Assembly: GCA_021772025.1 (NCBI GenBank)
Contig: JAETNT010000021.1
Location: forward strand, 1-62,880
DNA length: 62,880 nucleotides
Direction: 5' to 3'
Origin: Enterocloster bolteae
GTDB lineage: Bacteria > Bacillota > Clostridia > Lachnospirales > Lachnospiraceae
Made by a program: the position numbers and the translations under genes. The notes under the pieces are model-generated. The model searched no databases and was not told where the DNA came from. It saw only the letters and a list, made by a program, of their open reading frames with translations. Of this stretch, positions 11,640 through 27,582 are shown piece after piece. The stretch's first letter is position 1, and each line of letters begins with the position of its first letter.

Positions 11640-12506
11640 ATGGAAGAGCAGAAACTGGAACAGTTTGCCGCTTGGCTGCGTGACAGGGAGCGCAGCAAGA
11701 ATACGGTGGAAAAATACGTTAGAGATGCCAGACGTTTCCTTGAATTTGCGGGAACAGATGCCTGGGGACGGGAACAGGTGCTTTTGTACAAGGGATACCT
11801 GCAGAAAAAATATAAGATTACCAGCGTTAATTCCATGCTGGTAGCTTTAAACAGTTATCTGCTATTTATTGGCAGGCCGGAGTGTTCTGTGAATATTTGC
11901 CGGGTGCAGAGGTGCCTTTTTCGGGATGAATCCCGGGAACTTTCCTATCGGGAATATAAAAATCTGGTGAGAGTTGCTAATATGCAGAAAAAGATACAGC
12001 TGAGCTGTATACTGCAGACCATTGCATCCACAGGGATTCGGGTCAGTGAACTGAAATATATTACAGTGGAAGCATTGAAAGACCAAATGGTGGAAATCGA
12101 CTGTAAGGGAAAATACAGGTTTATTCCATTGCCTGCTGCCCTTGTGATTGTTCTGAAAGACTATTGCCGCAAGAAAAAGATTAAAAAGGGCAGTATTTTT
12201 GTTACAGACAAGGGAGAGCCAATGGACAGGAGAAATATCTGGGCAGGGATGAAAGAATTATGCGGTGAGGCCCAGGTGGTGGAAACAAAGGTATTTCCTC
12301 ATAATCTGCGTCACCTGTTTGCGCGCTGTTACTACGAGCAGAAAAAGGATCTTGTCCGGCTGGCTGACTTCCTGGGGCACAGCAGCGTGGAAACAACCAG
12401 GCGTTATACCATGGTCAGCAGCAAAGAGGCCTACCAGAAGCAATTGGAACTGGGACTTGTGTTTGATGATAAGAGTGAAAACCTTCAAGAAAAATCAGTA
12501 TTATGA
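11640..12506 (+). CDS. Tyrosine site-specific recombinase, likely the invertase of the adjacent flagellar switch
   Basis: 288 residues, about the XerC/XerD size with no large integrase arm domain. The N-terminal core-binding helices (about 1-95) precede a catalytic domain with all expected residues: Arg134 in TGIRVSEL, Lys157/159 in the beta hairpin, His221 and Arg224 in HNLRHLFA, His247 in LGHSS, and the nucleophile Tyr256 in TRRYTM. AGGAGG lies 8 bases before ATG 11640. Its stop codon lies inside the outer arm of the left inverted repeat (12501-12528). The other repeat and flgB follow. This resembles the RecV-type control of the Clostridioides difficile flg switch, but here the enzyme is encoded beside its putative site. 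A paralog is at 61900. Confidence 0.93.
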   Translation: MEEQKLEQFAAWLRDRERSKNTVEKYVRDARRFLEFAGTDAWGREQVLLYKGYLQKKYKITSVNSMLVALNSYLLFIGRPECSVNICRVQRCLFRDESRELSYREYKNLVRVANMQKKIQLSCILQTIASTGIRVSELKYITVEALKDQMVEIDCKGKYRFIPLPAALVIVLKDYCRKKKIKKGSIFVTDKGEPMDRRNIWAGMKELCGEAQVVETKVFPHNLRHLFARCYYEQKKDLVRLADFLGHSSVETTRRYTMVSSKEAYQKQLELGLVFDDKSENLQEKSVL

Positions 12507-12528
12507 CATAATGTGGATTATGTCATAA
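12501..12528 (+). repeat. Left recombination site (inverted repeat, Xer-like 11-6-11 dyad)
   Basis: Arm TTATGACATAA (12501-12511), core TGTGGA (12512-12517), arm TTATGTCATAA (12518-12528). The two arms are perfect inverse complements and the core is asymmetric, as in dif-type sites bound by two tyrosine recombinase protomers. Bases 12505-12529 recur exactly, inverted, at 12862-12886. The stop codon of the recombinase gene is at 12504-12506. Confidence 0.92.
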
Positions 12529-12628
12529 ATCATAGCCGGATTCGATAATTTCCTGTCTAAGCTTAATGCATAAATTAATATTAATTTTATTAATTTTAAC
12601 AAATTTTAGGGATTTTAAAAATTTGGGG

Positions 12629-12657
12629 TTGCAATCTTAATATAATTGTCATATCAT
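12629..12657 (+). promoter_or_regulatory. Candidate sigmaA promoter inside the invertible segment, facing flgB
   Basis: TTGCAA (12629-12634), a 17-base spacer and TATCAT (12652-12657). This is the best vegetative promoter match I see between the recombinase and flgB on the plus strand. Transcription from it would run out of the segment, through a leader of about 430 nt, into flgB. Confidence 0.6.
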
Positions 12658-12742
12658 GGTATCAGTTGCACTGTACCATCTCATGGAACCAATTAAAGTC
12701 GTGCTGTAAAAAACACAGCAGCAACTAAAAAAAATCCGGGAA

Positions 12743-12768
12743 AAAAGTAAGGGGATTCCCATACTTTT
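12743..12768 (-). terminator. Terminator-like hairpin inside the invertible segment, oriented leftward
   Basis: Stem AAAAGTA (12743-12749) with TACTTTT (12762-12768), plus an inner GGG/CCC stem. Read on the minus strand it is followed by TTTTTT (complement of 12746-12741), giving a U tract; on the plus strand it has none. If the segment flipped, this terminator would face flgB. Confidence 0.5.
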
Positions 12769-12862
12769 AGATGTGGCAGAAGCCATTGGATGTATGAGTT
12801 GTTCTGTTGTTTGTATATTTTGAAGCATTAATTACAATATGTAATTTTTCTATTCTATTTTT

Positions 12863-12890
12863 TTATGACATAATCCACATTATGTCGTAT
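12863..12890 (-). repeat. Right recombination site (inverted copy)
   Basis: Arm TTATGACATAA (12863-12873), core TCCACA (12874-12879, inverse complement of the left core), outer arm TTATGTCGTAT (12880-12890), which differs from the left arm at its last bases. The exact match with the left site is 25 bases (12862-12886). Confidence 0.92.
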
Positions 12891-13097
12891 CTTAGGTGGA
12901 TTTTTTATTGAGCCTTAAAATATTGATTGAAAAAAATACTCATATCGGGTGCTTATATAGATGAAATTTTGTGTGATTTTACAATAGACATCAGTCAGTA
13001 CTTTTTAAAATGAGATTGTTAATGGCGGTTTCATAACCATAAGGCCTGATTGTTGCTATATATAATGTTGAAATTTGAAATATAAAGGAGTGGTAAT
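12887..13097 (+). promoter_or_regulatory. Fixed part of the flgB leader
   Basis: A stretch of 211 AT-rich bases without an ORF between the right recombination site and flgB. A TATAAT-like string lies near 13059-13064 but has no convincing -35 partner. I see no sigma28 site and no c-di-GMP (GEMM) riboswitch signature. It ends in AGGAG (13086-13090), 7 bases before the GTG of flgB. Confidence 0.45.
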
Positions 13098-13493
13098 GTG
13101 TCAGGAATGTATGGAAATGGAATAGGGCTTACGGAAAAGGTTCTGGACTATTTATGGGGGAGGCAGAACATTACTTTAAATAATATTGCCAATGTGGATA
13201 CCCCTGGTTTTAAAGCCCAGTATGTAACGTTTGAGGAAGAATTGGCAAAAAGGATTCAAAATGCCGGCGGCGCAGATGGGAGGAAGACCCGGAGCACAAT
13301 AGCGGAAGCCATCAGGTCAAGCAGAGCAGGACTGCGCACAACCTGGAATGAAGCTACCCGTCTGGATGGCAATAATGTAGACATGGATCAGGAGCAGGTG
13401 GAGCTTGTGCGCACGGCCTACGAGTATCAGCAGGCGGCAAATTCAATCAACAGTGAATTGAACCGTCTGCGCACTGCGGCCAAAACTTTTTAA
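13098..13493 (+). CDS. flgB: FlgB, flagellar proximal rod protein
   Basis: 131 residues, normal for FlgB. It has the rod-protein signature NIANVDTPGFKAQYVTFEEE near the N-terminus and the C-terminal helix with DGNNVDMDQEQVELVRTAYEYQ. It is exported by the flagellar type III system and forms the proximal rod. The start is GTG 13098, with AGGAG 7 bases upstream; an ATG three codons in is an alternative. It is the first gene of the main operon, directly after the invertible segment. The usual partner flgC does not follow; it is at 25794. Confidence 0.94.
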   Translation: MSGMYGNGIGLTEKVLDYLWGRQNITLNNIANVDTPGFKAQYVTFEEELAKRIQNAGGADGRKTRSTIAEAIRSSRAGLRTTWNEATRLDGNNVDMDQEQVELVRTAYEYQQAANSINSELNRLRTAAKTF

Positions 13494-13536: not shown

Positions 13537-13866
13537 ATGGAATTATCAATGGAATTATCAGCAGAATTTATCAGGCCAATGGAGGAGCGGAACTCCGTGC
13601 CGGGTATAGGGGCTGCTGAAAACAAAAATGTTTTTGGGGAAAAGAAATCCCTTTTTCAGAACATATTGGAAAACGCCGTGGAACAGGTGCGCATTACCCA
13701 GGAAGACGCGGAGAATAAAAAATATCTTTTGGCCACAGGGCAGTTGGACGATGCTCATTCTCTGCCTATTGCTGAGGCAAAAGCAGCACTTAGCGTTGAG
13801 GTGCTGGTTGCTTTGAGAAATAAGGCAATGGAGTCTTATAACGAAATCATGAAAATGAGCGTATAG
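13537..13866 (+). CDS. fliE: FliE, hook-basal body adapter protein
   Basis: 109 residues, the usual FliE size. The C-terminus is diagnostic: LPIAEAKAALSVEVLVALRN followed by KAMESYNEIMKMSV. FliE joins the MS-ring to the rod. The N-terminus has two in-frame Met codons (MELSMELS); the first fits AGGAG at 13522-13526. It is 43 bases after flgB and 34 before fliF, so flgC is missing from the usual flgB-flgC-fliE order. Confidence 0.9.
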   Translation: MELSMELSAEFIRPMEERNSVPGIGAAENKNVFGEKKSLFQNILENAVEQVRITQEDAENKKYLLATGQLDDAHSLPIAEAKAALSVEVLVALRNKAMESYNEIMKMSV

Positions 13867-13900
13867 TTCAAACCAATAATGGCAGAAGGCTGGATGGAAA

Positions 13901-15628
13901 ATGCACACTCTAAAGGAAAACTGGCAGAAATTGTCGGATAAATCAAAGAAAATGTTAATGACAATCACTGGAGTGACGGCAGTGGTTGTTGTTTTTGCGG
14001 TTATAGCCCTTAAATTTGGCTGGCAGCCAGAATACAGCACTCTTTTCACGGGGCTGAATCAGGAGGAAGCCCAGGAGGTGGTGTCGCTTCTTCAAGAGGA
14101 AAATGTTGACTATCGGTTTAATGATAAAGAGGGTGCAATCCAGGTCACCAAGGAAAATGTGGATCAGACAAGAGCGAGACTTTTGAGTCAGGGGTATCCC
14201 AAGAGCGGGTTTACCTATGATATGTACAGAGATAACGCAGGCCTGATGACAACAGAATCAGATAAAAAGCAGTACACGCTTTATGACCTGCAGGACCGTC
14301 TGGGCGCCCAGATTCGTTTGTTTGAGGGAGTAAGGGATGCGAAGGTAACAATAGCAGAGGCTGGTGAGCAGAAATACGCTATTTCTGACCAGACCGGCGC
14401 GGATGCATCGGCCTCTGTTGTGGTAACCATGGAGAGTGGAAAGGCCCTTACGCAGGATAAAGCGGCGGCCATAAAGAACCTGATCGCCCGCGCCGTAAAG
14501 GGAATGAATTTTACCAGCGTCTCTGTTTTTGACGCGGAAACCATGATGGAGATTGGGGACAACAGCGCGGACGAAAGCGGCCTGGGCGGCGCAAAGGACC
14601 TGACTGCCCTTACAAGCCTGATTGAAAACAATATCGGGGCAAATGTGCGGCGCGTACTGGAAAAGCTTTACGGCCAGGGGAACGTGGCTGTCTCAGTTAA
14701 GGGAACCCTGAACATGGAAAAGCTGATTCAGGAAAATACACAGTATTCCACTCCGGATAAGATTGACGAGCAGGATAAAACCGGTCTGCTACATAAAGAA
14801 GATGTTGTAAATGATAATTCACTGGCAGCAGATATGTCTGCCGGCGGCGTGGCAGGCGCGGACGCCAATGCAGATACGCCCAGGTATACAAATAATGATA
14901 ATACCCAGACGGTGGCGGACAACTATACTAACAGCAGCGCCGCAAGGGAATGGCTGTATAACACAGTGAAGGAGCAGCGCCAGGTAGAGCCGGGGGTGTT
15001 GGAAAATATCACGGTGGGAATTGTGATTAATACGGATGATATGTCCGTAAGCCAGAATGATCTTGTAAAGCTGGTTGCTAACTCCGCAGGCATTCCCCAG
15101 GATGCGGCGGAGCAGAACATCGCAATCGTGCGTGCGGCAGCCTCCGGCGTGGTCCGGTCTCCTGATACGGAAGCCCAGCCGGTGAGCGCCCAGCCGGATC
15201 AGGCTTTGAATCTTCCTCTGCCGGTGGTGATTGCAATTATTTCAGGCATAGTGCTGCTTGTGCTGCTGATTCTTTTGCTCATAATCCGCGGCAGGGGCAG
15301 GAAGAAGGCAAAAGCCGGGGATGCGGACATGGACGGGCTGTTCGACCTTGTGGAAAATACAGAGGAGGAGTTTGTGGCTGGAAAGTCGCCCGGAATAGCT
15401 GATGGGGAAGCAGCTGAAGCGGGGGTAGCCGCACAGGATGATGAGATGCGCAGGAACGAAGAAATCATCAACCTTCGCATGCAGCATAGTATGAAGCTGA
15501 AACAGAATATCGGTGATTTTGTGGATCAGAATCCGCAGATTGCCGCAAAATTAGTGCAGAGTTGGCTGAGAGGAGAGGTCGAGGACATTGGCAGAAAAGG
15601 CAGTGATACAAGAAGAAAAGAAAAATGA
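13901..15628 (+). CDS. fliF: FliF, flagellar MS-ring protein
   Basis: 575 residues with one transmembrane helix near 18-39 (ITGVTAVVVVFAVIALKFGW) and a second near 435-460 (VVIAIISGIVLLVLLILLLI). The YscJ-like ring domain follows the first (FTGLNQEEAQEVVSLLQEEN). The C-terminal tail (NPQIAAKLVQSWLRGE) is the FliG-binding end. It forms the membrane ring that carries the rod and rotor. It overlaps fliG by 41 bases. Confidence 0.97.
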   Translation: MHTLKENWQKLSDKSKKMLMTITGVTAVVVVFAVIALKFGWQPEYSTLFTGLNQEEAQEVVSLLQEENVDYRFNDKEGAIQVTKENVDQTRARLLSQGYPKSGFTYDMYRDNAGLMTTESDKKQYTLYDLQDRLGAQIRLFEGVRDAKVTIAEAGEQKYAISDQTGADASASVVVTMESGKALTQDKAAAIKNLIARAVKGMNFTSVSVFDAETMMEIGDNSADESGLGGAKDLTALTSLIENNIGANVRRVLEKLYGQGNVAVSVKGTLNMEKLIQENTQYSTPDKIDEQDKTGLLHKEDVVNDNSLAADMSAGGVAGADANADTPRYTNNDNTQTVADNYTNSSAAREWLYNTVKEQRQVEPGVLENITVGIVINTDDMSVSQNDLVKLVANSAGIPQDAAEQNIAIVRAAASGVVRSPDTEAQPVSAQPDQALNLPLPVVIAIISGIVLLVLLILLLIIRGRGRKKAKAGDADMDGLFDLVENTEEEFVAGKSPGIADGEAAEAGVAAQDDEMRRNEEIINLRMQHSMKLKQNIGDFVDQNPQIAAKLVQSWLRGEVEDIGRKGSDTRRKEK

Positions 15629-16640
15629 CACAGATATCATTACTGATACCAGGCAAAAAGCTGCCATTGTGGTCGTGTCCCTGGGAGCGGACCGGGCTTC
15701 GCAGATTTACAAGTATCTCAGCGAGCAGGATATTGAGGACCTGACCTATGAAGTGGCGAAGATGGGAAAAACCTCCAACAGTCAGGTGGAAAATTCCCTG
15801 GATGAATTCTATAAACTGTGTCTGACCCACAAGATGATGTCAGACGGAGGACTGGATTATGCCAGAAATGTACTTGAAAAGGCATTTGGGGAAACAGCAG
15901 CCAGAAGTCTTTTGGAAAAAGTTTCCAGAACCTTGCAGTCCAAACCCTTTAATTTTTTCATGAAAGGAGATCCGAAAGCGCTGCTGTCTCTGCTGCAGCA
16001 TGAACGTCCCCAGGTAATCGCCCTTATTATGGCTTATATGGATCCCAAGCAGGCTGCTCTGGTACTGGAGCAGCTTCCGGATAAAAAGCGGATTCCGATT
16101 TTGGAGAAAATGGCTAATATGGACAGGGTATCCCCGGAGGCCATTGCCATTGTTGAGGAGGAGATGAAGCGTAAGTTTGCAACTATTATCACCAGCGAGG
16201 ACAATATGAATCTTGGCGGAATCGACTTTGTGGCAGATGTTATGAACAATGTGGACAGAAGCAGTGAAAGACGTATTTTTGATGAGATGGATAAACATAA
16301 TCCTGATTTGTCACAGAATATCAGGTCCAGGATGTTTGTATTCGAGAACATTCTGGATATGGATGACAGGTCCATTCAGCGCTTTGTCCGTGACTGCGAT
16401 ACAAAGGATATTGTGTATGCCCTTAAGAGCGCTCCGGATGAGATGAAGCAGGTATTCTTTGCCAATATGTCCAAGCGTATGGCTGAGACTGTAAAGGGAG
16501 ATTTGGAGGTTACCACCAATGTAAGGCTTAAGGATGTTGAGGAGGCACAGCAGCGTATTGTCAATATTATCCGAAGCCTGGAAGAAGCAGGAGAGGTCAT
16601 TATAAAGAAGGGAGGCGAGGATGATAACATCATCGTTTAA
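15588..16640 (+). CDS. fliG: FliG, flagellar motor switch protein
   Basis: 350 residues with N, middle and C domains of the usual length. The middle/C region shows ERPQVIALIMAYMDPKQAA and an armadillo-like helix set, and the C-terminal domain has the charged torque helix region around DIVYALKSAPDEMKQVFFAN. It starts at TTG 15588 behind GAGGACA; the start lies inside the end of fliF, which implies coupling. It overlaps fliH by 20 bases. FliG transmits stator torque and binds FliF and FliM. Confidence 0.96.
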   Translation: MAEKAVIQEEKKNDTDIITDTRQKAAIVVVSLGADRASQIYKYLSEQDIEDLTYEVAKMGKTSNSQVENSLDEFYKLCLTHKMMSDGGLDYARNVLEKAFGETAARSLLEKVSRTLQSKPFNFFMKGDPKALLSLLQHERPQVIALIMAYMDPKQAALVLEQLPDKKRIPILEKMANMDRVSPEAIAIVEEEMKRKFATIITSEDNMNLGGIDFVADVMNNVDRSSERRIFDEMDKHNPDLSQNIRSRMFVFENILDMDDRSIQRFVRDCDTKDIVYALKSAPDEMKQVFFANMSKRMAETVKGDLEVTTNVRLKDVEEAQQRIVNIIRSLEEAGEVIIKKGGEDDNIIV

Positions 16641-17451
16641 AGGCATTGTAAAGCCGGGGGAGGCGAAGGTCGAAGCCTTTTCTTTTCCTGTCCAGATGTC
16701 TTTTCCAGCAAAAAAATCAGTAAAGGAAAAGGGGACAAAGACAGAAGCGGTCCATCTTCCTTGCCAGGAGCCGCAGGAGGCGGCGGCCTGCATGGCCCTT
16801 GATGAGGCAGGAGCAATCATAGAGGAAGCAAAAGCGGATGCCCGGCAAATCCTCATGGAAGCAAATGCGCAGGCTGAAGAAATTCTTGCAAAAGCAAGGG
16901 AAAACGCAGACAGGGTAAAGAGGGAATCCGCCTCCAAGGGCAGGGAAGAGGGATACAGGGAGGGATATGAGCAGGGCCGGAAAGAGAGCATGGAAAAAAG
17001 CAGCAAGGTGATGAGCGCGCAGCAGGACGTGTTTCGCAGCAGCCTGGAGAACGCCCTCAGCGCCATTGATGCTGCCAAGGAAAGAAGTCTTGAGAAATAC
17101 CTTGATGAATTAAAAGACTGCTCTCTTGCCGTGGCGGAAAAAGTGATTTGCGTCAGTCTTAAATCCAGCGGCCAGATTATCAAGAGAATGCTTGTTTCAG
17201 AAATAGAAAAACTGAAACGGACCGCATGGGTAAAAATATACATGGAGAAAAGCGATTACAATATGATGATGGAGGCGGACGCGGACGTTGTAAATGAACT
17301 GGCCAGGCTGTCGGACAATATCAAATTTATAGTCATGAATAAAGAAAGCAATGGAAGCTGCATCATTGAAATGCCGGAAGAAATCGTGGATATCAGTGTG
17401 GATACCCAGATGGATAATATAAGGGAATTGCTGGAAAACATCAAAGTTTAG
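16621..17451 (+). CDS. fliH: FliH, flagellar export ATPase regulator
   Basis: 276 residues, Ala/Glu-rich coiled coil in the middle (about residues 60-150, with GREEGYREGYEQGRKE containing GxxxG-like repeats typical of FliH) and a compact C-terminal domain (VAEKVICVSLKSSGQ). FliH binds and restrains FliI and carries it to the export gate. It starts within the end of fliG and ends 8 bases before fliI, in the conserved fliF-G-H-I-J order. Confidence 0.92.
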   Translation: MITSSFKGIVKPGEAKVEAFSFPVQMSFPAKKSVKEKGTKTEAVHLPCQEPQEAAACMALDEAGAIIEEAKADARQILMEANAQAEEILAKARENADRVKRESASKGREEGYREGYEQGRKESMEKSSKVMSAQQDVFRSSLENALSAIDAAKERSLEKYLDELKDCSLAVAEKVICVSLKSSGQIIKRMLVSEIEKLKRTAWVKIYMEKSDYNMMMEADADVVNELARLSDNIKFIVMNKESNGSCIIEMPEEIVDISVDTQMDNIRELLENIKV

Positions 17452-17459
17452 GAGCGCTT

Positions 17460-18761
17460 ATGTTTAAGAAAATACCTCAGATGGTGGCTAAGGCGGAGGT
17501 TGTAAGCCATATTGGGAAAATTGAAAATGTGGTAGGGATGTCCATAGAAGCATCAGGCGGCCGGTCCGGTATCGGAGATATTGTAATGATTTATAACGAA
17601 GAGCAGAACCGTCAGGTGCCGGCAGAGGTTGTTGGCTTTAAAGATGGAAAAATCCAGCTTATGACCTATGAACCCACCAGTGGGATAACCTCCGGAAGCT
17701 TTGTGCGCAACACAAGGCGCAGGCTTAAGGTGCCGGTGGGAAATTTCCTGCGGGGCAGGATTATCAATGCCCTGGGAGAACCCTTGGACGGAAAAGAGGA
17801 ATTTCAGCCAACCCAGTTTTATACGGTCAACAGTTCCTATACAAATCCCTTAAGCCGGCCGCCGATCCGGGAACGTCTGGAGTTTGGAGTCAAGGCGATT
17901 GATGGACTTAATACCATTGGAAAGGGCCAGAGAATAGGGATTTTTGCAGGTTCAGGCGTGGGAAAAAGCACATTGATGGGAATGATTGCTAAAAATGTAA
18001 AGGCCGACATTAATGTGATTGCGCTGGTGGGGGAGCGGGGGCGGGAGGTCCTGGAGTTTGTGCAAAAGGACTTGGGAGAAGAGGGAATGAACCGGTCTGT
18101 TTTAGTGGTGGCAACATCGGACCAGCCCGCCATGCTCAGAATGAAATGCCCCTTGGTCGCAACTACAATAGCGGAGTATTTCAGGGACAGGGGAAATGAC
18201 GTGCTTTTGATGATGGACTCCCTTACCCGCTATGCCATGGCCCAGCGGGAAGTTGGGCTTGCCATCGGGGAACCGCCTATTGCCAGGGGCTATACGCCCT
18301 CTATCTATGCCGAGCTTCCAAAGCTTTTGGAGCGGAGCGGGAATTTTAATCAGGGCTCCATAACAGGGGTATACACGGTGCTGGTGGAGGGCGATGATAC
18401 AAACGAACCGATTTCCGACACGGTCCGGGGGATTCTGGACGGCCATATCGTGCTCAGCCGGCAGCTTGCAAGTGAGAACCATTTTCCCGCCATTGACATT
18501 GGAGCCAGTATTTCAAGATTAATGGTAGAGGTAGTTTCAAAGGAACACAGGATTTTGGCCTCCCGTTTCCGGAATATGATGGGGCTGTATCAGAAAAACG
18601 CAGACCTTATCTCAATCGGCGCATATAAAAAAGGAAGCAACGGAGCCTTAGACGAGGCGGTTTCTAAAATTGACCGCATGAACCAGTTCCTGGAGCAGGA
18701 CATTGATGAAAGCTTTGAATACCATGAGGTATTGGCATTATTGAAAGAAATTACCGGATAG
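17460..18761 (+). CDS. fliI: FliI, flagellar type III export ATPase
   Basis: 433 residues. The Walker A motif is at 163-171 (AGSGVGKST) and Walker B in VLLMMDSLTR, with the conserved F1-like signature VGERGREVLEF. It energises or primes export of rod, hook and filament subunits together with FliH and FliJ. Its ribosome binding site TAGGAG overlaps the fliH stop. Standard length and position; nothing unusual. Confidence 0.98.
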   Translation: MFKKIPQMVAKAEVVSHIGKIENVVGMSIEASGGRSGIGDIVMIYNEEQNRQVPAEVVGFKDGKIQLMTYEPTSGITSGSFVRNTRRRLKVPVGNFLRGRIINALGEPLDGKEEFQPTQFYTVNSSYTNPLSRPPIRERLEFGVKAIDGLNTIGKGQRIGIFAGSGVGKSTLMGMIAKNVKADINVIALVGERGREVLEFVQKDLGEEGMNRSVLVVATSDQPAMLRMKCPLVATTIAEYFRDRGNDVLLMMDSLTRYAMAQREVGLAIGEPPIARGYTPSIYAELPKLLERSGNFNQGSITGVYTVLVEGDDTNEPISDTVRGILDGHIVLSRQLASENHFPAIDIGASISRLMVEVVSKEHRILASRFRNMMGLYQKNADLISIGAYKKGSNGALDEAVSKIDRMNQFLEQDIDESFEYHEVLALLKEITG

Positions 18762-18772
18762 GAGACAATGAC

Positions 18773-19231
18773 ATGAAGCAGTTCCGGTTTGGCCTGGATA
18801 CGGTCCTTGATTATAAGATGCAGACATTGGAACATTTAAAAACAGAACATGCTGCCATTAACAGAAAAGTCATCCGTCAGGAGGAAGAGGTAATCCGCGC
18901 CCACAGCAGCCTGAGCGGTTATGAAGATGCATTTGACCGTACAAAGGGTTCCGGGGCCTTAATTGAATATTACCGCCTGTATGATATGTGCATTGAACGG
19001 ATGGGAAAAATCCTGGAGGAAGAAGAGGGAAGGCTTGAGGATTTAAGGGTAAAGGAAGAATGCAAAAAAAAGGAGGTTGTGGCGGCTAAGATAGACACCT
19101 CTAAATTTGAGAAGCTGAAGGACAGGCGCCAGACCGCATATAATAAAGAGCTGATGAGAGCGGAAGAACGGTTCTCCGAAGAATTTGTAATCCGGAGCGC
19201 GGTGCTAAACCGCAGCCAGCACCGGGGATAA
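18773..19231 (+). CDS. fliJ: FliJ, flagellar export chaperone/stalk protein
   Basis: 152 residues, almost entirely charged helix as expected for the FliJ coiled-coil hairpin (MKQFRFGLDTVLDYKMQTLE at the start, long Glu/Lys/Arg-rich helices after). It follows fliI by 11 bases. FliJ sits in the FliI hexamer and helps engage FlhA. Sequence identity in this family is always low; the call rests on the N-terminal FRF.L..VL.YK pattern, length and position. Confidence 0.9.
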   Translation: MKQFRFGLDTVLDYKMQTLEHLKTEHAAINRKVIRQEEEVIRAHSSLSGYEDAFDRTKGSGALIEYYRLYDMCIERMGKILEEEEGRLEDLRVKEECKKKEVVAAKIDTSKFEKLKDRRQTAYNKELMRAEERFSEEFVIRSAVLNRSQHRG

Positions 19232-19290
19232 GACTGATAATTGCAGCAGCAGCTGTTGATTATAAAAATAATAATGAGGAGGAAACGCTT

Positions 19291-20475
19291 ATGGCCAATA
19301 TTGAGATGGTGCGGATGATAAGGCAGGATAAGAAGCTGTCCAATCCATCAAAGCCATCCGGAAGGAATAATGCGGATTTTTCCCACATGCTCAGCGCAAA
19401 GGCTGCAGATGTGAGGGATGCCGGATTGCCGCGGCCGGATGGGAAAGTCCGGGAAAAGGAGGACGGCGGGCAAACAAAACCAAAGGAGGAGCCGGACGCT
19501 GATGATTTCCAGACCCTGAAACTGTACCATGATTTTGCGGCAAGGTTTGAATGGGGTATGAGCCAATCTATTCCGGTGTGTGGAGAGCTGCTTTTGGAAC
19601 AGGGTGAAGCAGTCCCGGATTTGGAATTTGTGAAGGCGCAGCAAAGCGGGATTGCGGAAGGAGAAAATACGGCCAGGATAATCGCAGAAAGCCGGACAAT
19701 CCCGGAGGAAACTGCCGCCCCCCGGAAAATGCTTCAGGCGGAACAGGAAACAAAGGGGTCAAAGACAATGGCTGATATGGGACTTCCCATGGATGGGACA
19801 GAAAAACTTAAAAAGACCGGGGCAGGGCAGGATTCCCATGCGCTGCGGCAGGAAAAGGCCGGGGATTTGAAGGAAGGCTCCAAACCACAGGCAGATGAAC
19901 CGTCCAGCCAGGCAGATGGAAAAATAGCTGAGATTGGTTCGAAAGAGAAAGAAGCCGGCCGGCCGGGGCAGGAGATGGAGAATGAAGCTCCGGAACAAGC
20001 ACATTTTGCATCCGCGGCGGAAGGCGGCAAAGGGGCAGAGGGGGCCGTACATCAGGAGGTCAGACATGTTGAGACAATCAGAACGACCCGGCAGGAACTT
20101 CCGGCTGATGTTGGAAAAACCATTGCCAACAGGATGCCGCAGAAAAATGGGGAGATAACCATTGAACTGGAACCGGCGAGCCTTGGCAGAATTATTGTCC
20201 GTGTGACCTACGATGCAGACAGGGCATCAGTGGCGCTTATGTCCGCTAATCCCAGGACACTTGAAATCCTGAGCCGGGATGCGGGCAGCATTGCAGGAAT
20301 GATTGAGGAAAAAACCGGCCAGGAGACAGTTGTTTACATACCACAGCAGGAAGCCTATCCTGAGGAATCCGGGAGAGAACGCGGGTCAGAGGGCCGGGAA
20401 CAAAAGCAGCAAAAAGACAGAAAAAAACAACAGTCCGAGTCTTTTATACAACAGGTCAGACTGGGGCTGGTCTGA
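19291..20475 (+). CDS. fliK: FliK, flagellar hook-length control protein
   Basis: 394 residues. The N-terminal two thirds are low complexity (Lys, Glu, Gln, Gly and Ala rich), fitting a molecular-ruler region. The C-terminal Flg_hook domain at about 275-350 contains NGEITIELEPASLGRIIVRV and EKTGQETVVYIPQQ. FliK measures hook length and switches FlhB specificity to filament substrates. AGGAGG lies upstream of ATG 19291, with a 59-base gap after fliJ. It is followed by flgD. Confidence 0.92.
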   Translation: MANIEMVRMIRQDKKLSNPSKPSGRNNADFSHMLSAKAADVRDAGLPRPDGKVREKEDGGQTKPKEEPDADDFQTLKLYHDFAARFEWGMSQSIPVCGELLLEQGEAVPDLEFVKAQQSGIAEGENTARIIAESRTIPEETAAPRKMLQAEQETKGSKTMADMGLPMDGTEKLKKTGAGQDSHALRQEKAGDLKEGSKPQADEPSSQADGKIAEIGSKEKEAGRPGQEMENEAPEQAHFASAAEGGKGAEGAVHQEVRHVETIRTTRQELPADVGKTIANRMPQKNGEITIELEPASLGRIIVRVTYDADRASVALMSANPRTLEILSRDAGSIAGMIEEKTGQETVVYIPQQEAYPEESGRERGSEGREQKQQKDRKKQQSESFIQQVRLGLV

Positions 20476-20487
20476 GAAGGAGGAAAA

Positions 20488-21000
20488 ATGGCTGATAGTT
20501 TAGGGGTAAGCGGCACAAATAACCCATACATAACGCAAACTTATTCAGCATCTTCCAATGAGAAGAATACGCTGACAATCGAAAGCTACTTCAAGCTGCT
20601 GGCTGCGCAGCTTCAGAATCAGGATATGACAAATCCCATGAGCAACAGCGAGATGATGGCGCAGATGACGCAGATGGCAATGGTCCAGTCTATTGGCACA
20701 ATGACAGACGCTGTAAATAATTCTATGAACATTACAACACAGACCTACGCAGCCGGGCTGGTGGGACAGGAGATTACAGTTGCCGTAACAGAAGAAAATG
20801 AATATGGACAGCCGGTGGCCGTGGGTGTGAAATATGGAATCGTTGAGTCCGTGAGTTTAGTGGGAGGAAACCCCACCATCAGGCTTGCGGATGACGGCAC
20901 AGATTATTCTCTTTCCTATATAGTGGGAATGGGAAAAATTGATAATCCCTTTGGAGGAACAGATAAGGGAGAGGAAGAGAAGGTTCAGTTTCTTGTGTAG
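20488..21000 (+). CDS. flgD: FlgD, hook capping/scaffolding protein
   Basis: 170 residues. The N-terminal FlgD signature is clear: FKLLAAQLQNQDMTNPMSNS then EMMAQMTQMAMVQSI. It lacks the longer C-terminal Ig-like domains of enteric FlgD and is of the compact Gram-positive kind. It scaffolds hook assembly and leaves when the hook is done. AAGGAGG precedes ATG 20488, 12 bases after fliK. Confidence 0.95.
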   Translation: MADSLGVSGTNNPYITQTYSASSNEKNTLTIESYFKLLAAQLQNQDMTNPMSNSEMMAQMTQMAMVQSIGTMTDAVNNSMNITTQTYAAGLVGQEITVAVTEENEYGQPVAVGVKYGIVESVSLVGGNPTIRLADDGTDYSLSYIVGMGKIDNPFGGTDKGEEEKVQFLV

Positions 21001-21014
21001 AGGAAAAAGGGAAT

Positions 21015-21293
21015 ATGGAGATAAAAGCAGTAGAAGGCCTGAACTTTTCCAAACATGCCGCGAAGCGGAGTATAGAGCGGGGGATTACAACAGACGGACA
21101 GTTTAAGAATGTTCTGGAACACGCGGTAGATGAGGCCCGGAAAAAGGGGGCTAAGGATTTGGCGGTTATTGGAAGCCAGGCGGTTTTTGTTGTAAACGTA
21201 CCTAATAATGTAGTGGTTACAGTCATGTCCAGAGAGGACATGAAGGACAGAATATTTACAAATATTGACAGTGCTGTTCTCATTCCAAAATAG
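21015..21293 (+). CDS. Small flagellar operon protein (TIGR02530-type)
   Basis: 92 residues with a central FSKHAAKRSIERGI motif and a C-terminal segment AVFVVNVPNNVVVTVMSRED. This matches my memory of the uncharacterised flagellar operon protein family found between flgD and flgE in Firmicutes (TIGR02530). Its role is not established. It lies 14 bases after flgD, with AGGAAAAAGGG before the ATG, and 71 bases before flgE. Confidence 0.8.
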   Translation: MEIKAVEGLNFSKHAAKRSIERGITTDGQFKNVLEHAVDEARKKGAKDLAVIGSQAVFVVNVPNNVVVTVMSREDMKDRIFTNIDSAVLIPK

Positions 21294-21364
21294 GCAGGAC
21301 CGAAAGGATGCCTGGCGAAGTGCCGGAAGTGCAATAGTTGAGACAGCGGAAAGGGAGATAGAAA

Positions 21365-22306
21365 ATGTTAAGAGCAATGGATTCAGCAATATCAGGGCTG
21401 AGGGCACATCAGAACAAACTGGATGTAATCGGACACAACATTGCAAATGTGAATACCTTTGGGTTTAAGGCTCAGAGCTATAGTTTTAAGGAGGCCATGT
21501 ATCAGACAGCCACCCAGTCAACAGGCGGAGTTCAAGATGGCAACACAACGGCGGCCGGTACAAACGGAGCCCAGTATGGATACGGCAGTATGATGGGTTC
21601 CATCAGTACAGATATGCTTTCCAGCACACCTACCTATGTGGGAGGACTGAACGCATGTATTAATGGTCAGGGTTTTTTTGCAACCCAGGCCATATCAACA
21701 AAAGAGATTGATGTAGACGGGGATGCCGCTGATGTGACAGATGCATTAAAGGAAGCGGAATTTGCCTATACACGTGTGGGACAGTTCCAGCTTGACAGTC
21801 AGGGATACCTTACCGATGGAACGAATTTTATATACGGATTCCGCCCGGATGGCAACAATGGATTTGAAACAGGCAGTTTAGTGGCGCTCAGGGTTCCCTC
21901 TGATTTAAATAATGGGTTTGATGATGATGCGCTTCAAGCCGCCAGTGTGAAGATTAATGAACTGGGAGAGGTTACAGCCACTGTTACGAACCCGGACAAT
22001 GGTGAGAGCGTCCAGGTATCTTTGGGGAAGATAGCCATTGTAACCTTTCAAAATCAGGAAGGCCTTATGAAAAGCGGAGGAAGCTATTACTCCGCAAGCA
22101 TTGGCGATAATACGGGCTTTTGTTCCGCAACCATCCCAGGCGGTTCCACATCCAAATTGATGACCGGTTACCTGGAGGCATCCAACGTGGATCTGGCAAA
22201 AGAGTTTTCAGAAATGATTACGACACAGAGGGGATTTCAGGCAAATACTAAGATGATTACTGTCAGTGACGAGATATTATCAGACCTGATCAGTATGAAA
22301 CGATAA
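21365..22306 (+). CDS. flgE: FlgE, flagellar hook protein
   Basis: 313 residues. The N-terminal D0 signature GLRAHQNKLDVIGHNIANVN runs into TFGFKAQSY; the C-terminal D0 is NVDLAKEFSEMITTQRGFQA then TKMITVSDEILSDLI. The middle is short, giving a compact hook subunit compared with the 400+ residues of many homologs. It is exported and forms the hook. GGGAG lies 7 bases before ATG 21365. A 6-bp hairpin (22320-22343) lies between it and flbD. Confidence 0.94.
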   Translation: MLRAMDSAISGLRAHQNKLDVIGHNIANVNTFGFKAQSYSFKEAMYQTATQSTGGVQDGNTTAAGTNGAQYGYGSMMGSISTDMLSSTPTYVGGLNACINGQGFFATQAISTKEIDVDGDAADVTDALKEAEFAYTRVGQFQLDSQGYLTDGTNFIYGFRPDGNNGFETGSLVALRVPSDLNNGFDDDALQAASVKINELGEVTATVTNPDNGESVQVSLGKIAIVTFQNQEGLMKSGGSYYSASIGDNTGFCSATIPGGSTSKLMTGYLEASNVDLAKEFSEMITTQRGFQANTKMITVSDEILSDLISMKR

Positions 22307-22370
22307 TAAATACTTTTCTCAGGGCTGTCTGACGGCGGCCCTGGGAGGATAAGGGCGAAAAGAGAATGTT

Positions 22371-22565
22371 ATGATTAAAGTAATCCGTTTGAATGGTGAG
22401 GCACTTTTACTTAATTTCTTCCAGATTGAATCCGTGGAAATGATACCTGAGACAAAGATTAAGATGATGAATGGGACGTTTTATCTTGTGAAGGACAGCG
22501 CAGAATCCATTACCCAGCAGGTAAAAGAAGTTATGAGGGATTGCTGCCTACATCTTTTGCAGTGA
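22371..22565 (+). CDS. FlbD/SwrD-family small protein
   Basis: 64 residues. The pattern MIKVIRLNG, then LNFFQIESVEMIPETKIKM and a short helical tail matches the FlbD family; in Bacillus subtilis the homolog SwrD lies at the same place after flgE and supports motor torque. It sits between flgE and motA. Unlike the B. subtilis operon, fliL does not follow; the stator genes motA and motB occupy that place. Confidence 0.85.
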   Translation: MIKVIRLNGEALLLNFFQIESVEMIPETKIKMMNGTFYLVKDSAESITQQVKEVMRDCCLHLLQ

Positions 22566-22583
22566 TACAGGAGGCATTTTCGT

Positions 22584-23396
22584 ATGGATTTGACAACATT
22601 AATAGGAATCGTATGCGGTATTTTTCTGGTTATCAACGGAATTGGACTGGATAAGATTGGAAATTTTGTGGATATACCCAGTATCCTGATTGTGGTGGGA
22701 GGCACCCTTGCCGCCACCATTGCCAGCTATCCTCTATCAATCCTGCTGGATATACCAAAACATATTTTAATATTGTTCCGGGGAAAAAAATATAATATTC
22801 CGGCACTGGTGGAGCAGATGGTGGATCTGGCCATGGTGGCGCGGCAGAATGGCCTGCTGGCTTTGGAAGAGAAGGCGGAGGAAATCAAAAATCCGTTTTT
22901 TAAACAGAGTGTGCTGATGATTGTTGACGCCAATGATCCGGATAAGGTCCGTTTTGTGCTGGAGCGGGAACTGGAAAACATGATGGTCCGCCATGACGCG
23001 GCGGCCGGGCTGTATGAAAAGGCGTCCGCCTATGCTCCGGCTTTTGGAATGGTGGGTACCCTGGTGGGACTAATCAACATGCTGAAAGGCCTTAATCTGG
23101 ATGGCAGCGGAGGAGCTTCCAATTTGGGACAGGATATGTCGGTTGCTCTTATTACAACCTTTTACGGAAGCTTTCTCTCCAATCTGTTTTTCCATCCAAT
23201 TGCTAAAAAACTGCGTATCCGCAATGATGAAGAGGAGCTTTACTGCTCTACCATTATTGAGGGGATTATTGCCATACAGGCAGGGGAAAATCCAAAATAT
23301 CTGCGGGAGCACCTTCTGGCTTCCACGAAACAATCCGTTCAGCGTAAGCTGCTGGCAAAAGCAGAAAAGGCCCCCAATCCAGAGGCAGGTGAGTAA
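22584..23396 (+). CDS. motA: MotA, flagellar stator protein
   Basis: 270 residues with four hydrophobic segments (about 3-20, 33-50, 145-170, 180-202). The conserved region APAFGMVGTLVGLINMLKGL carries the proline and glycine positions of MotA, and the cytoplasmic loop between TM2 and TM3 is charged as required for contact with FliG. It forms the proton or sodium channel with MotB. AGGAGG precedes the ATG. It sits inside the main operon, not with cheA. Confidence 0.95.
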   Translation: MDLTTLIGIVCGIFLVINGIGLDKIGNFVDIPSILIVVGGTLAATIASYPLSILLDIPKHILILFRGKKYNIPALVEQMVDLAMVARQNGLLALEEKAEEIKNPFFKQSVLMIVDANDPDKVRFVLERELENMMVRHDAAAGLYEKASAYAPAFGMVGTLVGLINMLKGLNLDGSGGASNLGQDMSVALITTFYGSFLSNLFFHPIAKKLRIRNDEEELYCSTIIEGIIAIQAGENPKYLREHLLASTKQSVQRKLLAKAEKAPNPEAGE

Positions 23397-23398
23397 CA

Positions 23399-24322
23399 AT
23401 GAAGAAAAAGAAAGGGAACCGTCCCACAGACGGGGGCGGAAACTGGATGGATACATACGGCGACATGGTTACCCTGCTGTTGACATTTTTTATCATGCTC
23501 TATTCCATGTCCAGTTTAAGCGAACAGAAATGGGAAATCTTTGTCCGCAGTATATATCCTGAGGATGTGAAGGAAGCTCAGGAGCAAATTGACGTTGGCG
23601 GAATCATTGACCCTGATGCAGCGGTAGAGGGGATGAAGCCGGATGAACTCACCACGGATGACGCGGAAGATTTAAATAAGCTCTATCTGACCATTGCCCA
23701 GAGAATGAATGAGAATGGGGCTGAGGGCGTGACAATTTCAAGAGGGGACGGATACACATACGTAAGCTTTAATGACAATGTGTTCTTTAACGGAAATGAG
23801 TCTGCTATAACGGAGTCCGGCCAAAGGATTCTGGCTGCCTTCTGCTCGGCAATCAGCCCGATGAGTGATAAGCTGTCCCAGATTAATATTATGGCCCATA
23901 CGGCTCAGGGGGACCCCAGGCGGCTTAACAATCCGCGTGTAGACCGCATGCTGTCAGCCATGCGGGGGGCGGAGGTGTGTATCTTTATACAGGAAAAGAA
24001 TGTAATCGGACCGGATAAATTAGTCAATATCAGCTATGGAGAGTTCAGGCCGGTGGCTTCCAATGACACCTCGGAGGGAAGGGCAAAAAACCGCAGGGTT
24101 GAGATGCTGCTGATTGATGAGGGCACGGCCGAGCGTTCCATAAGCGAATATATTGAAGAGTATAACAGCGGAAAGAATGCAGACAAGACCGTTGTGACAG
24201 GCAGCCAGAACGGGAACGCTGACTCTGGGTTTACACAGACACAGCCCTCGCCTGAGAATATAGCCAGCACAATGCCGCCCTCAGGCACAGAGGCTTTTGC
24301 AGGCGGAGAGACATCAGAATAA
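23399..24322 (+). CDS. motB: MotB, flagellar stator protein with OmpA-like domain
   Basis: 307 residues. A short basic N-terminus leads to one transmembrane helix with the essential channel aspartate in WMDTYGDMVTLLLTFFIMLY. The C-terminal OmpA/MotB peptidoglycan-binding domain includes NIMAHTAQ and RRVEMLLID, and a Ser/Pro/Gly-rich tail follows. It anchors the stator to the wall. It starts 3 bases after motA. The stop at 24320-24322 lies 22 bases before the chosen fliM start. Confidence 0.95.
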   Translation: MKKKKGNRPTDGGGNWMDTYGDMVTLLLTFFIMLYSMSSLSEQKWEIFVRSIYPEDVKEAQEQIDVGGIIDPDAAVEGMKPDELTTDDAEDLNKLYLTIAQRMNENGAEGVTISRGDGYTYVSFNDNVFFNGNESAITESGQRILAAFCSAISPMSDKLSQINIMAHTAQGDPRRLNNPRVDRMLSAMRGAEVCIFIQEKNVIGPDKLVNISYGEFRPVASNDTSEGRAKNRRVEMLLIDEGTAERSISEYIEEYNSGKNADKTVVTGSQNGNADSGFTQTQPSPENIASTMPPSGTEAFAGGETSE

Positions 24323-24344
24323 AAGAGTAAAGGTGGTTTCAGCA

Positions 24345-25403
24345 ATGGCAGATGTACTATCCCAAAGCCAGATAGATGCGCTTCTTAAATCAATGCAGAA
24401 TGATGGTCCTGAAAAGATGGAACAGTCAGTTGAAAAGAAGCTGGAGGCCGAAGAGACAAAGTACAGTAAATATGATTTCTACAGTCCAAGAAAGTTTACA
24501 AAGGACAAAATAAAAATACTGAACAGCGTCTTTGAAAATTATGCCCGTATTCTGACTTCTCAGGTAAACGGAATATTCAGGGTTCTTACAGACATAACCG
24601 TGATGGAAGTGCAGGAGCGCAGATACTATGAGTTCGTCAATTCACTTCATGAAAATGACAGTATTACATTGGCGGATGTTGAGATTTCTGACAAGGGAAA
24701 GAATAATGTTCCGCTCATGGTGTATGTTACTCCCGGATTGGTCATCACACTGATTAACCACATGCTGGGCGGCGGAGATGAAATCGTGAAGCTGGAAGAA
24801 AATTACCATTATTCTGATGTGGAAGTGGCGTTATACCGGAGAGTGGTGAAGTATTTTGTGCAGGCGTTAAAAGACGGTTTTTCTAATTATATCAATGCCA
24901 GTTTTGAGGTACAAAGAATTGAAGAAAACCCAAGCATGGTCCAGGAAATCGGTCTTGACGAGACCGTGGCAATCATACTTCTCAATGTGGATGTGGCAGG
25001 CATGGCGGTAGAAAAGATAAAAATATGCATTCCAGGCACGCTGCTGGAGTACATGTTCCATCTGATTGACAGCCGCAAGCATATTGCCAGAGGCTATTCT
25101 TATGAGGACAACAGAGAAGTGATTATGGATAACCTGCGCTATACGGCGCTTCCTGTAACAGGGCAGCTGGGTACCGTGGAACTGGAGCTGGAGACCCTTT
25201 ATAACCTGAAGGTGGGGGATGTCATTTCCATGAACAAACCCAAGGATGGAAATGTAAAGATTTTTGTGGGCCGCCAGCCCTGGTTTACCGGAAAGATGGG
25301 GGCCTATAAGAAAAACATAGCTGTCTGCATTGAAAAACAGATTTATGAGGAAGCTGAAAACGGGGAAAGTGAAGGGCATCTTAGACAAGAAAATACAAAT
25401 TAA
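24345..25403 (+). CDS. fliM: FliM, flagellar motor switch protein
   Basis: 352 residues from ATG 24345, chosen over an upstream ATG at 24297 because MADVLSQSQIDALLKSM is the standard FliM N-terminus (CheY-binding peptide SQSxIDALL) and AAAGGTGG lies about 8 bases before it. The middle domain has LVITLINHMLGGGDE, and the C-terminal SPOA domain follows (LELETLYNLKVGDVISMNKP). It binds CheY-P and FliG in the C-ring. Confidence 0.96.
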   Translation: MADVLSQSQIDALLKSMQNDGPEKMEQSVEKKLEAEETKYSKYDFYSPRKFTKDKIKILNSVFENYARILTSQVNGIFRVLTDITVMEVQERRYYEFVNSLHENDSITLADVEISDKGKNNVPLMVYVTPGLVITLINHMLGGGDEIVKLEENYHYSDVEVALYRRVVKYFVQALKDGFSNYINASFEVQRIEENPSMVQEIGLDETVAIILLNVDVAGMAVEKIKICIPGTLLEYMFHLIDSRKHIARGYSYEDNREVIMDNLRYTALPVTGQLGTVELELETLYNLKVGDVISMNKPKDGNVKIFVGRQPWFTGKMGAYKKNIAVCIEKQIYEEAENGESEGHLRQENTN

Positions 25404-25418
25404 AGCGAGGATGAAAAA

Positions 25419-25781
25419 ATGGAAAAAATTATGTTGGTAGATGATGCTGCGTTCATGCGGATGATGATAAAAAATGCTTTGACAAAGAGCGGTTACAGTA
25501 ATTTTGTGGAGGCGCAGGATGGGGCAGAAGCAGTGAAAAAGTATGAGGAGGAAAAGCCGGATCTGGTTATCATGGACATTACCATGCCCAATATGGATGG
25601 CCTCCAGGCCCTTAAGAAAATCAAGGAGGGGGATTCGTCTGCAAAAGTTGTTATGTGTACTGCAATGGGACAGGAAAGCATGGTGGTGGATGCCATAAAA
25701 TCCGGAGCAAAGGATTTTATCGTAAAGCCGTTTAATGCAGACAGGATTGTCCAGACAGTCAATTCCATTTTTGGAAAATAG
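25419..25781 (+). CDS. cheY: CheY, chemotaxis response regulator
   Basis: 120 residues, a stand-alone receiver domain: acidic pocket in LVDDAAF, phospho-acceptor Asp53 in VIMDITMPNMDG, Thr81 and Lys103 in FIVKPF. It is located between fliM and flgC/fliY, as in Bacillus, where CheY-P binds FliM and is dephosphorylated by FliY and CheC. GAGGATG precedes the start. No C-terminal output domain. Confidence 0.96.
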   Translation: MEKIMLVDDAAFMRMMIKNALTKSGYSNFVEAQDGAEAVKKYEEEKPDLVIMDITMPNMDGLQALKKIKEGDSSAKVVMCTAMGQESMVVDAIKSGAKDFIVKPFNADRIVQTVNSIFGK

Positions 25782-25793
25782 GGAGGGATACAG

Positions 25794-26243
25794 ATGGCGT
25801 TTTTAAGTTCTTTTGATATTGCCGCCTCCGGTATGAGCGCTCAGAGACTCCGGATGGATATTGCAGCGGAAAATATAGCTAATATTGACACCACGCGGAC
25901 AGAGGCAGGAGGGCCTTACAGAAGAAAAGATGTGCTGTTTGAGAGCTACGGGGCCGGGTCCTTCCGGGAGGCTTTGCGCAGTGCTTCCCTGGGCAAGGGA
26001 TTTTTAAGCAGGAATGCAGGGGTGAGGGTGGCAGGTATTATTGAGGATGACAGAGAGCTGAAGCGGGTCTACAATCCGGGACACCCGGATGCAGATGCAC
26101 AGGGATATGTGAATTATCCAAATGTGGATTTATTAAAGGAAACAGTGGACAGTATGTCGGCTACCAGATCCTACGAGGCAAATGTGACGGCATTAAATGC
26201 AATGAAGGTTATGGCTCAGAAAGCGCTGGATATAGGGAAATAG
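25794..26243 (+). CDS. flgC: FlgC, flagellar proximal rod protein (displaced)
   Basis: 149 residues. FDIAASGMSAQRLRMDIAAE then NIANIDTTRTEAGGPYRRK is the FlgC N-terminus, and YVNYPNVDLLKETVDSMSAT with RSYEANVTALNAMK is the C-terminal rod helix. Normal length. Its position between cheY and fliY, 12 kb from flgB, is unusual: in most Firmicutes flgB-flgC-fliE are contiguous. AGGGAGGG precedes ATG 25794. Confidence 0.94.
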   Translation: MAFLSSFDIAASGMSAQRLRMDIAAENIANIDTTRTEAGGPYRRKDVLFESYGAGSFREALRSASLGKGFLSRNAGVRVAGIIEDDRELKRVYNPGHPDADAQGYVNYPNVDLLKETVDSMSATRSYEANVTALNAMKVMAQKALDIGK

Positions 26244-26283
26244 AGGTATGGCAAGAAAATGAAAGAGCAAAAGGAGACAAACA

Positions 26284-27582
26284 ATGGGCGCTTGTGATTT
26301 TACGGAAATGGAACTGGATGCCATAGGCGAGATAATGAATATCAGTCTGGGGGCATCGGCAACAGCCGTATCTAAAATGCTTGGCGAAACGGTAAATATT
26401 ACCACTCCTACTGTCCGGGTATTAATGAGAGACGAGTTTGATTTTAAAAAACTGGAACCGGCGGTGGGGGTCGAGATTGCCTATGTAGAAGGATTAACGG
26501 GCAATAATGTTATGATGTTTGCCCTTAATGATGTCCGTATTATCGTAGGGATGCTCATGGGGGCGGAGATACCGGCGGAGGAATTTGAACTGGATGAGAT
26601 TAATATGAGTGCAATATGCGAGGTTATGAACCAGATGATGGGGTCATCCGCAACTGCGCTTTCTGAGTTCTTTGGCTATGCCGTTAATATATCCACGCCG
26701 GTATCTTTTCCTGTGGAAAGTGAAGAGTGGTTTAAAGAGCGATTCTTTCCCCAGGGCGAAAAGATGGTAGTGGTACATTTCCTGCTTGAAATAGAAGGAA
26801 AGCTGAAAAATGAATTTTTGAATATTATGTCCACTGATTTGGTAAAGCATTTGATTGAGCCTTTTACGGAAAGCCTGAAAGAAAATGAAAGCCAAATCGC
26901 GGCGGAACCAGAAGATAGCGGGGCAATTCAGGAACCGGATTCAGCGGAAGAGTCAAAAGAGCTGTCAGCAAAACGGCAGGAGCAGCCGGTACAGGAGCCG
27001 CAGCCAATGGCACAGCCGCAGCCAATGGCACAGCCGCAGCCAATGGCAGAGCCGCAGCTAATGGCAGAGCCGCAGCCATCGGCACAGCCAGTGTTACAGC
27101 CGCAGCCCGCAGTATCACCCTCCGCTTTTACGGTAACTCCCGGATATCAGTCAATGCCGGTGGATTCAGGGATGCTGCAGCTGATAAACCAGATGCAGCA
27201 GTCTCAGATGCAGATGCTGGAACTGATGAAGGATATGAAGGAAAAGGGAAGTCGGGAAAGCACGCTGATTCATCCTGCCCAAAATAAGCCGCTGGAGGCA
27301 GGCGCCTTAAACGGAGAGGAGGAGACCGTAAACCAGGAAATGCTGATGAAGGTTCCATTGGAAATATCCGTGGAGATTGGCCGGACAAAAAAGCTGGTCA
27401 AGGATATTCTGGAATTGACCCAGGGCTCCCTGGTAGTGCTGGACAAAATGGCAGGAGAGCAGGCTGATTTATATGTCAATGGCCAGTGCGTTGCCAGAGG
27501 AGACATTGTTGTGGTGGAAGACAATTTCGGCATCCGTATCACTGAAATTATTGCCAGGAATTTAAACCCGGAGATTTTATAG
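26284..27582 (+). CDS. fliY: FliY, CheC-like/FliN switch protein with CheY-P phosphatase sites
   Basis: 432 residues. The N-terminal half is CheC-like with two intact phosphatase motifs of the form (D/S)xxxExxN-x22-P: DAIGEIMN and SAICEVMN, each followed at the right distance by proline. A Pro/Gln-rich linker holds five tandem 18-bp units (27001-27090, repeating QPMAQP-like residues). The C-terminal SPOA/FliN domain ends near residue 430 (LELTQGSLVVLDKMAGEQAD). It replaces fliN in the C-ring and removes phosphate from CheY-P. AAGGAG precedes the ATG. Confidence 0.93.
   Translation: MGACDFTEMELDAIGEIMNISLGASATAVSKMLGETVNITTPTVRVLMRDEFDFKKLEPAVGVEIAYVEGLTGNNVMMFALNDVRIIVGMLMGAEIPAEEFELDEINMSAICEVMNQMMGSSATALSEFFGYAVNISTPVSFPVESEEWFKERFFPQGEKMVVVHFLLEIEGKLKNEFLNIMSTDLVKHLIEPFTESLKENESQIAAEPEDSGAIQEPDSAEESKELSAKRQEQPVQEPQPMAQPQPMAQPQPMAEPQLMAEPQPSAQPVLQPQPAVSPSAFTVTPGYQSMPVDSGMLQLINQMQQSQMQMLELMKDMKEKGSRESTLIHPAQNKPLEAGALNGEEETVNQEMLMKVPLEISVEIGRTKKLVKDILELTQGSLVVLDKMAGEQADLYVNGQCVARGDIVVVEDNFGIRITEIIARNLNPEIL
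27001..27090 (+). repeat. Five 18-bp in-frame tandem repeats in the FliY linker
   Basis: The unit CAGCCAATGGCACAGCCG occurs at 27001 and 27019, then with few changes at 27037, 27055 and 27073. It encodes a Q-P-M/S-A-Q/E-P hexapeptide. Because the unit is 18 bp, copy-number change would keep the reading frame. Confidence 0.9.

Follow-up and report, generated by a model that had tools for sequence, protein, structure and literature searches.

The recombinase genes of the E. coli fimBE-fimS locus lie next to the switch, and Salmonella hin is encoded inside its own invertible segment. The fimS segment is 314 bp long (PMC5903667) and contains a promoter (PMC5386303), and Hin is a serine recombinase whose inversion reaction switches flagellin type (PMC11868660). 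In the flg switch of Clostridioides difficile (Cdi4), the segment measures 154 bp and is bounded by imperfect repeats of 21 bp; the recombinase RecV (CDR20291_1004) serves further switches, cwpV among them, and a promoter and a c-di-GMP riboswitch lie upstream, the switch itself carrying no promoter and working through Rho (PMC5386303, PMC7446863, PMC5903667).

The locus described here lies in the window, the whole stretch of 62,880 nucleotides that was analysed, where a tyrosine recombinase gene (REC) is followed by a repeat-bounded segment and flgB. The 332-bp segment has opposite orientations in the window and in a sister genome (G426), and we consider it likely, with a probability of roughly 0.85, that it is a phase-variation switch that is flipped by the adjacent REC and toggles the flgB operon. 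By analogy, it may work like the C. difficile flg switch while being laid out like fimBE-fimS. As in Cdi4, the segment stands directly upstream of the flgB operon and is accompanied by a tyrosine recombinase, its orientations are opposite between genomes, and the operon carries the gene of the flagellar sigma factor; the parallel drawn by an earlier sequence-only reading of this DNA is borne out in position and in predicted function. That reading was also right that the recombinase adjoins the switch, which REC touches, and that the segment is longer than that of C. difficile (332 bp versus 154 bp). Unlike those of Cdi4, the repeats in the window are palindromic, of unrelated sequence and present at only two sites in the draft genome; no further site of this pattern exists there for REC, in contrast to the several switches of RecV. 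The segment also differs in having a promoter-like sequence inside and no riboswitch that we could find, two features that make it likely that the ON/OFF logic is not that of C. difficile.

With E. coli fimS (FimB/FimE), the locus shares a segment of about 300 bp, here predicted to carry the promoter, an adjacent tyrosine recombinase and a surface appendage as target, but it has one recombinase instead of two, unrelated sites and a flagellar operon as target. The fimS-type adjacency is present in the window, the promoter inside the segment being predicted only. Salmonella Hin likewise controls flagella by DNA inversion, whereas in the window a tyrosine recombinase is encoded outside the segment and the predicted target is the operon for basal body, export and motor. 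In a search restricted to open-licence PMC papers, we saw no entry that describes this flagellar arrangement or the recombinase family.

The switch lies between REC (11640..12506, forward strand) and flgB, the first gene downstream (13098..13493, forward strand; TIGR01396 above cut-off), and both neighbours were verified as the sequence-only reading had placed them. Recomputing the arms returned the perfect 25-nt inverted repeat of the original claim, at 12505-12529 and 12862-12886 with 332 nt between; when widened to 12502-12529 and 12862-12889, the arms form 27 of 28 pairs with one mismatch. On the basis of the repeat scan and a genome pattern search, the recombination sites were annotated as a left arm (12502..12529, forward strand) and a right arm (12862..12889, reverse strand), enclosing the invertible segment at 12530..12861. 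When all 62,880 bases were scanned for inverted repeats (18 nt or longer, identity of 90% or more, arms 20-1000 nt apart, exact seed 14), this was the sole repeat of its class, and the site pattern, searched at up to 3 mismatches in the draft genome (4.5 Mb, 198 contigs), was absent outside these two places. Each arm is itself nearly palindromic, TTATGACATAAT-GTGG-ATTATGTCATAA, with an asymmetric centre that reads GTGG on the left and CCAC on the right; near-palindromic arms with such a centre are expected for the core site of a tyrosine recombinase.

REC encodes a protein of 288 aa, the predicted segment flipper, that matches PF00589 and PF02899 above cut-off, and its stop codon overlaps the left arm. 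Residues R134, K158, H221, R224, H247 and Y256, aligned with XerD, are invariant in REC across six homologues, and we take these R-K-H-R-H-Y positions to have catalytic roles. By sequence, the best matches among solved structures are XerC-like, XerD and XerA. The NCBIfam equivalog cut-offs are not reached (XerA 130.5 bits versus 220, XerC 114 versus 335, XerD 109 versus 330), and we thus do not call REC a housekeeping Xer; the label 'Xer-like' stands for the fold family, given both Pfam integrase domains and the Xer structure matches, but does not extend to the Xer equivalogs. Models of tyrosine-type invertases in NCBIfam gave low scores only. Upstream of REC, at window positions 11570-11606, an inverted repeat, TTATTGGGT...ACCCAATAA, surrounds a TATAAT-like element and is nearly kept in G426; it is possibly an operator controlling REC.

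The sister genome G426 was found through a FliF search of the genus of G146, a genome that is discussed below. Its neighbourhood is the same as that of the window (MCP 95%, REC 96%, FlgB 96%, FliF 96% and FliG 99% identity), and its DNA flanks, which take in the left arm on one side and the right arm on the other, are collinear with those of the window (93.2% and 94.5% identity). Between the arms, the segment aligns to the opposite strand: with arms omitted, 297 of 332 alignment columns match when the segment is inverted and 140 of 338 when it is compared directly. The outer half of each arm keeps its flank in G426, as expected if exchange falls inside the arms. Both orientations of the locus are thus seen between genomes, in assemblies; assembly from short reads could place a segment flanked by 25-nt repeats the wrong way round. 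The sequence-only reading had staked its proposal on relatives not all sharing one orientation and survives this comparison, the segment of G426 being inverted exactly between the arms. The 25-nt arms are intact in both genomes (perfect in the window, with one mismatch in G426), REC of G426 is an open frame 96% identical to that of the window, and the two segments have diverged at about 10% of positions.

Of 397 sampled family genomes, 70 contain strong homologues of REC (E up to 1e-60), and named homologues were seen in Lachnospiraceae, Oscillospiraceae and related groups. Removal of duplicates reduced 150 hits to 124, and exclusion of a further 30 without 900 bp on both sides left 94 loci; these include the window's own and that of G426, and represent the homologues fetched, not an exhaustive set. 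The usual layout is a recombinase, then a repeat-bounded segment, then the target. With a repeat defined by at least 17 nt and at least 90% identity in loci with 900 bp on both sides, a repeat lies 3' of the recombinase in 80 of the 94 loci versus 5' in 2. Segments (n = 89) measure 143-468 bp, with a median of 237, and a median of 19 bp separates their start from the aligned recombinase end. At 22 of the 124 unique loci, the contig stops within 420 bp 3' of the recombinase, where the switch lies, compared with 3 of 124 for the 5' side, an excess expected if assemblers fork at active switches. The 81 REC hits at 80 named loci comprised 59 with a repeat, 10 more with a contig end within 500 bp and 12 with neither.

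The commonest core among the family sites is ACATAAT-N4-ATTATGT, found in a loose form in 59 of 89 segments and in the exact N4 form in both arms in 45. In all 45 exact-core pairs the centres are reverse complements of each other, with 37 different centres and none self-complementary, a result partly forced by the way pairs are found. Matched site pairs of the same class were also observed at G022:C39:63968-64157 (ACTG/CAGT) and G368:C283:3083-3272 (ATTA/TAAT). Two loci of G032 (L049 and L051) have segments of 468 and 466 bp bounded by repeats of another class, with an additional recombinase-like gene close by.

Downstream of flgB, Pfam and NCBIfam matches delineate a forward-strand run at 13537..32826, with fliE, fliF, fliG, fliH, a fliI-type ATPase, fliJ, fliK, flgD, a hook gene, flbD, motA, motB, fliM, a response regulator, a rod gene, a fliN/Y-type gene, fliP, fliQ, fliR, flhB and flhA. 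It continues on the same strand with fliA, encoding sigma-28 (32823..33614; TIGR02479 above cut-off), and with two rod/hook-type genes, cheC-, cheD- and cheW/response-regulator-type genes, a ParA-type ATPase and others (33607..41821; family matches and spacing). Gaps within 13537..32826 are mostly below 80 bp, and the single large gap in the run, at 22307-22583, contains flbD; this tight spacing suggests one transcript for the whole flagellar run. Of the operon of about 25 kb that had been described as starting at flgB and including fliA, the first gene and the presence of fliA were confirmed, but the length needs correction, as the run of flagellar and chemotaxis genes extends past fliA to about 41.8 kb.

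In the mechanism that we propose, REC would bind the two palindromic sites and exchange strands across the asymmetric GTGG/CCAC centres, and the segment would thereby invert. In the window, a predicted promoter (TTGCAA-17-TATCAT; 12629..12657, forward strand) faces flgB, and this orientation would be ON. In G426, the promoter-like sequence would read towards REC and hairpins that have entered the flgB-reading path would block read-through, so that this orientation is predicted to be OFF. Late flagellar genes would follow the state of the switch, since fliA sits in the run. The ON and OFF states, catalysis by REC and the effect on expression are what we infer from sequence features.

The promoter-like sequence fits 9 of 12 consensus positions, a score that is common in shuffles and not significant alone, and it lies about 205 bp from the arm, versus 7-86 bp (mostly 22-47) for the strong promoters of the family. 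Its hexamers and spacing are identical in G426, and another relative, G368, differs once, in the first hexamer; these two are the only ones of 38 other flgB upstream regions in which the block is recognisable. In comparison with G368, 17, 15 and 14 of 20 positions match in the 20-bp bins over 12610-12669, and 0 to 15 in the other bins of the segment; the block thus stands out only modestly. Terminator-like hairpins with U-tracts lie on the opposite strand of the segment, among them one followed by a T run at 12743..12768 (reverse strand); in G426, inversion brings them onto the strand that reads from REC towards flgB. Counting against the predicted ON state, the flgB-reading strand also carries a weak hairpin (-8.5 kcal/mol) in the window orientation.

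These features also bear on a serious rival, in which the segment inverts but control is exerted after transcription start: transcription would arrive from upstream, for example through REC, and be stopped by hairpins or Rho according to orientation. The orientation dependence of the hairpins with U-tracts, the weak score of the internal promoter and the C. difficile precedent (PMC5386303, PMC7446863) would all suit such an arrangement, which leaves unexplained why G426 and G368 have retained the promoter-like block and why many family segments contain near-consensus promoters. Of 89 segments, 5 have a promoter with 11 or more of 12 consensus positions that faces the target, and 18 have one that faces the recombinase (0.7% per strand in shuffles), and most assemblies with a strong promoter thus show the predicted OFF state. 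We regard control by termination alone as possible, and lean towards a switch that carries its own promoter.

A weaker terminator-like hairpin (12872..12906, forward strand; -7.1 by folding), made of the centre and outer flank of the right arm, precedes flgB in either orientation and likewise counts against the prediction, though the palindromic arm (-10) folds more stably. It pairs AATCCAC with GTGGATT, is followed by a T run and has a counterpart at 4425-4455 of locus L109. Although the arm is decayed in G368, two base pairs of the hairpin there have both partners replaced, and these paired changes suggest selection on the hairpin RNA. As for a riboswitch in the leader, an Rfam search of 11300-13600 gave no c-di-GMP match; its four matches were all far below gathering scores and were judged to be due to chance.

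FliF was found in 39 of the 397 sampled family genomes, at 41 places. Of the 40 places other than the window itself, 35 had their upstream regions retrieved, and the divergent loci of G176, G175, G387, G073 and G018 were left out; three of the 35 loci had no FlgB match and one was on a contig with only 264 bp upstream of flgB. REC lies beside flgB in one of these 35 other flagellar loci, that of G146, and among six more loci with flgB from G426's genus, only that of G426 has this neighbour. Conversely, 80 named loci with REC homologues gave no flagellar basal-body match and one 35% match to the receiver-domain protein of the window. G146, of the same genus as G426, has a single site next to a G-run, and the only other match to this site in its genome has 2 mismatches and is on another contig. 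Between REC and flgB of G146 (L113, 3700-3910), we observed a single palindromic site, more than 10 G in a row and four imperfect direct repeats of 10-11 bp. The syntenic locus of G368 has neither REC nor the left arm, its remaining segment has the orientation of the window and its right site is decayed; here the switch was likely lost and locked.

Such decay is what could be expected had the segment flipped once in one lineage, with REC inactive since and the genomes locked in opposite states. In the recombinase family, too, most similar segment pairs share orientation, and window/G426 is the only inverted one of 12. We nevertheless hold a fixed inversion to be improbable, as the two genomes have kept REC and both arms intact despite about 10% divergence of the segment and the contigs of the family break preferentially on the switch side. 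It is very improbable that the arms are a palindromic operator pair for a looping regulator and the G426 orientation an assembly error: each arm could bind a dimer, and assemblers can misorient segments between short repeats, but the segment is inverted in G426, the conserved family layout puts the repeat beside the recombinase in 80 of 94 loci, no regulator gene explains this layout, and the asymmetric centres vary between loci while matching as reverse complements within a pair.

The switch of the window resembles the clostridial family loci in its homologous recombinase, its position just 3', its matched centres and its related core, and differs in its target, those tested in the family being mostly surface proteins or capsule genes and not flagella. 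For ten targets hand-picked from the 89 loci, long reading frames were favoured, and the sample thus leans to large surface proteins. The 16 proteins near 14 switches comprised ten surface-like ones (with choline-binding, leucine-rich, dockerin/cohesin, von Willebrand, beta-helix or Listeria-Bacteroides repeat features), one related to capsule (CpsB/CapC), one ABC-2 transporter, two with regulator-like domains (a transcriptional activator and a weak AP2) and two without a match. In a tree of 46 recombinases, the flagellar ones fall in one group of 11 (100/100 support). For the two flagellar linkages (window/G426 and G146), one origin or two are both possible: the flagellar label needs two changes on this tree and no bootstrap tree needs only one, but the starred branches force only one. 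We infer that a surface-type switch was recruited to flagella. More broadly, it seems somewhat probable that Clostridia contain many cassettes of one recombinase and one private switch, with a spacer-coded site 3' and usually adhesins or capsule as target, one of which would have been recruited to a flagellar operon with motor and sigma-28 genes, a second cassette with another site class standing at the far end of the contig.

The immune system responds strongly to the flagellin of gut clostridia. Under a heritable all-or-none switch, motility and antigen display would thus be bet-hedged, in a manner masked in average expression data. If the proposed switch is real, C. difficile is not alone in switching a whole flagellar operon, and the parts used need not be the same. 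A recombinase with a 3' repeat could serve to predict phase-variable loci from assemblies, and the many recombinase-site pairs with distinct centres may offer orthogonal inversion tools.

Three contigs of G000 (C149, C165 and C187) carry three different FliF genes (100, 69 and 64%), which points to either mis-binning or several flagellar systems. FliF had no match in the three other genomes of this genus, while the genus of G426 and G146 gave a match of 96%; the contig may thus be mis-binned (contamination 7.26%). Part of another flagellar contig, used as DNA query, had no match in five genomes, which settles nothing on the origin of the contig. Another recombinase, with 41-44% identity to REC, follows a FliD-like gene near the far end of the window (61900-62880). 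The 3' end of this recombinase gene is overlapped by a palindromic left arm, ACAACAAA...TTTTGTTGT, at 62765-62788, for which the draft genome yielded no partner. The contig ends 92 bp after this arm, probably because a second switch here interrupted the assembly.
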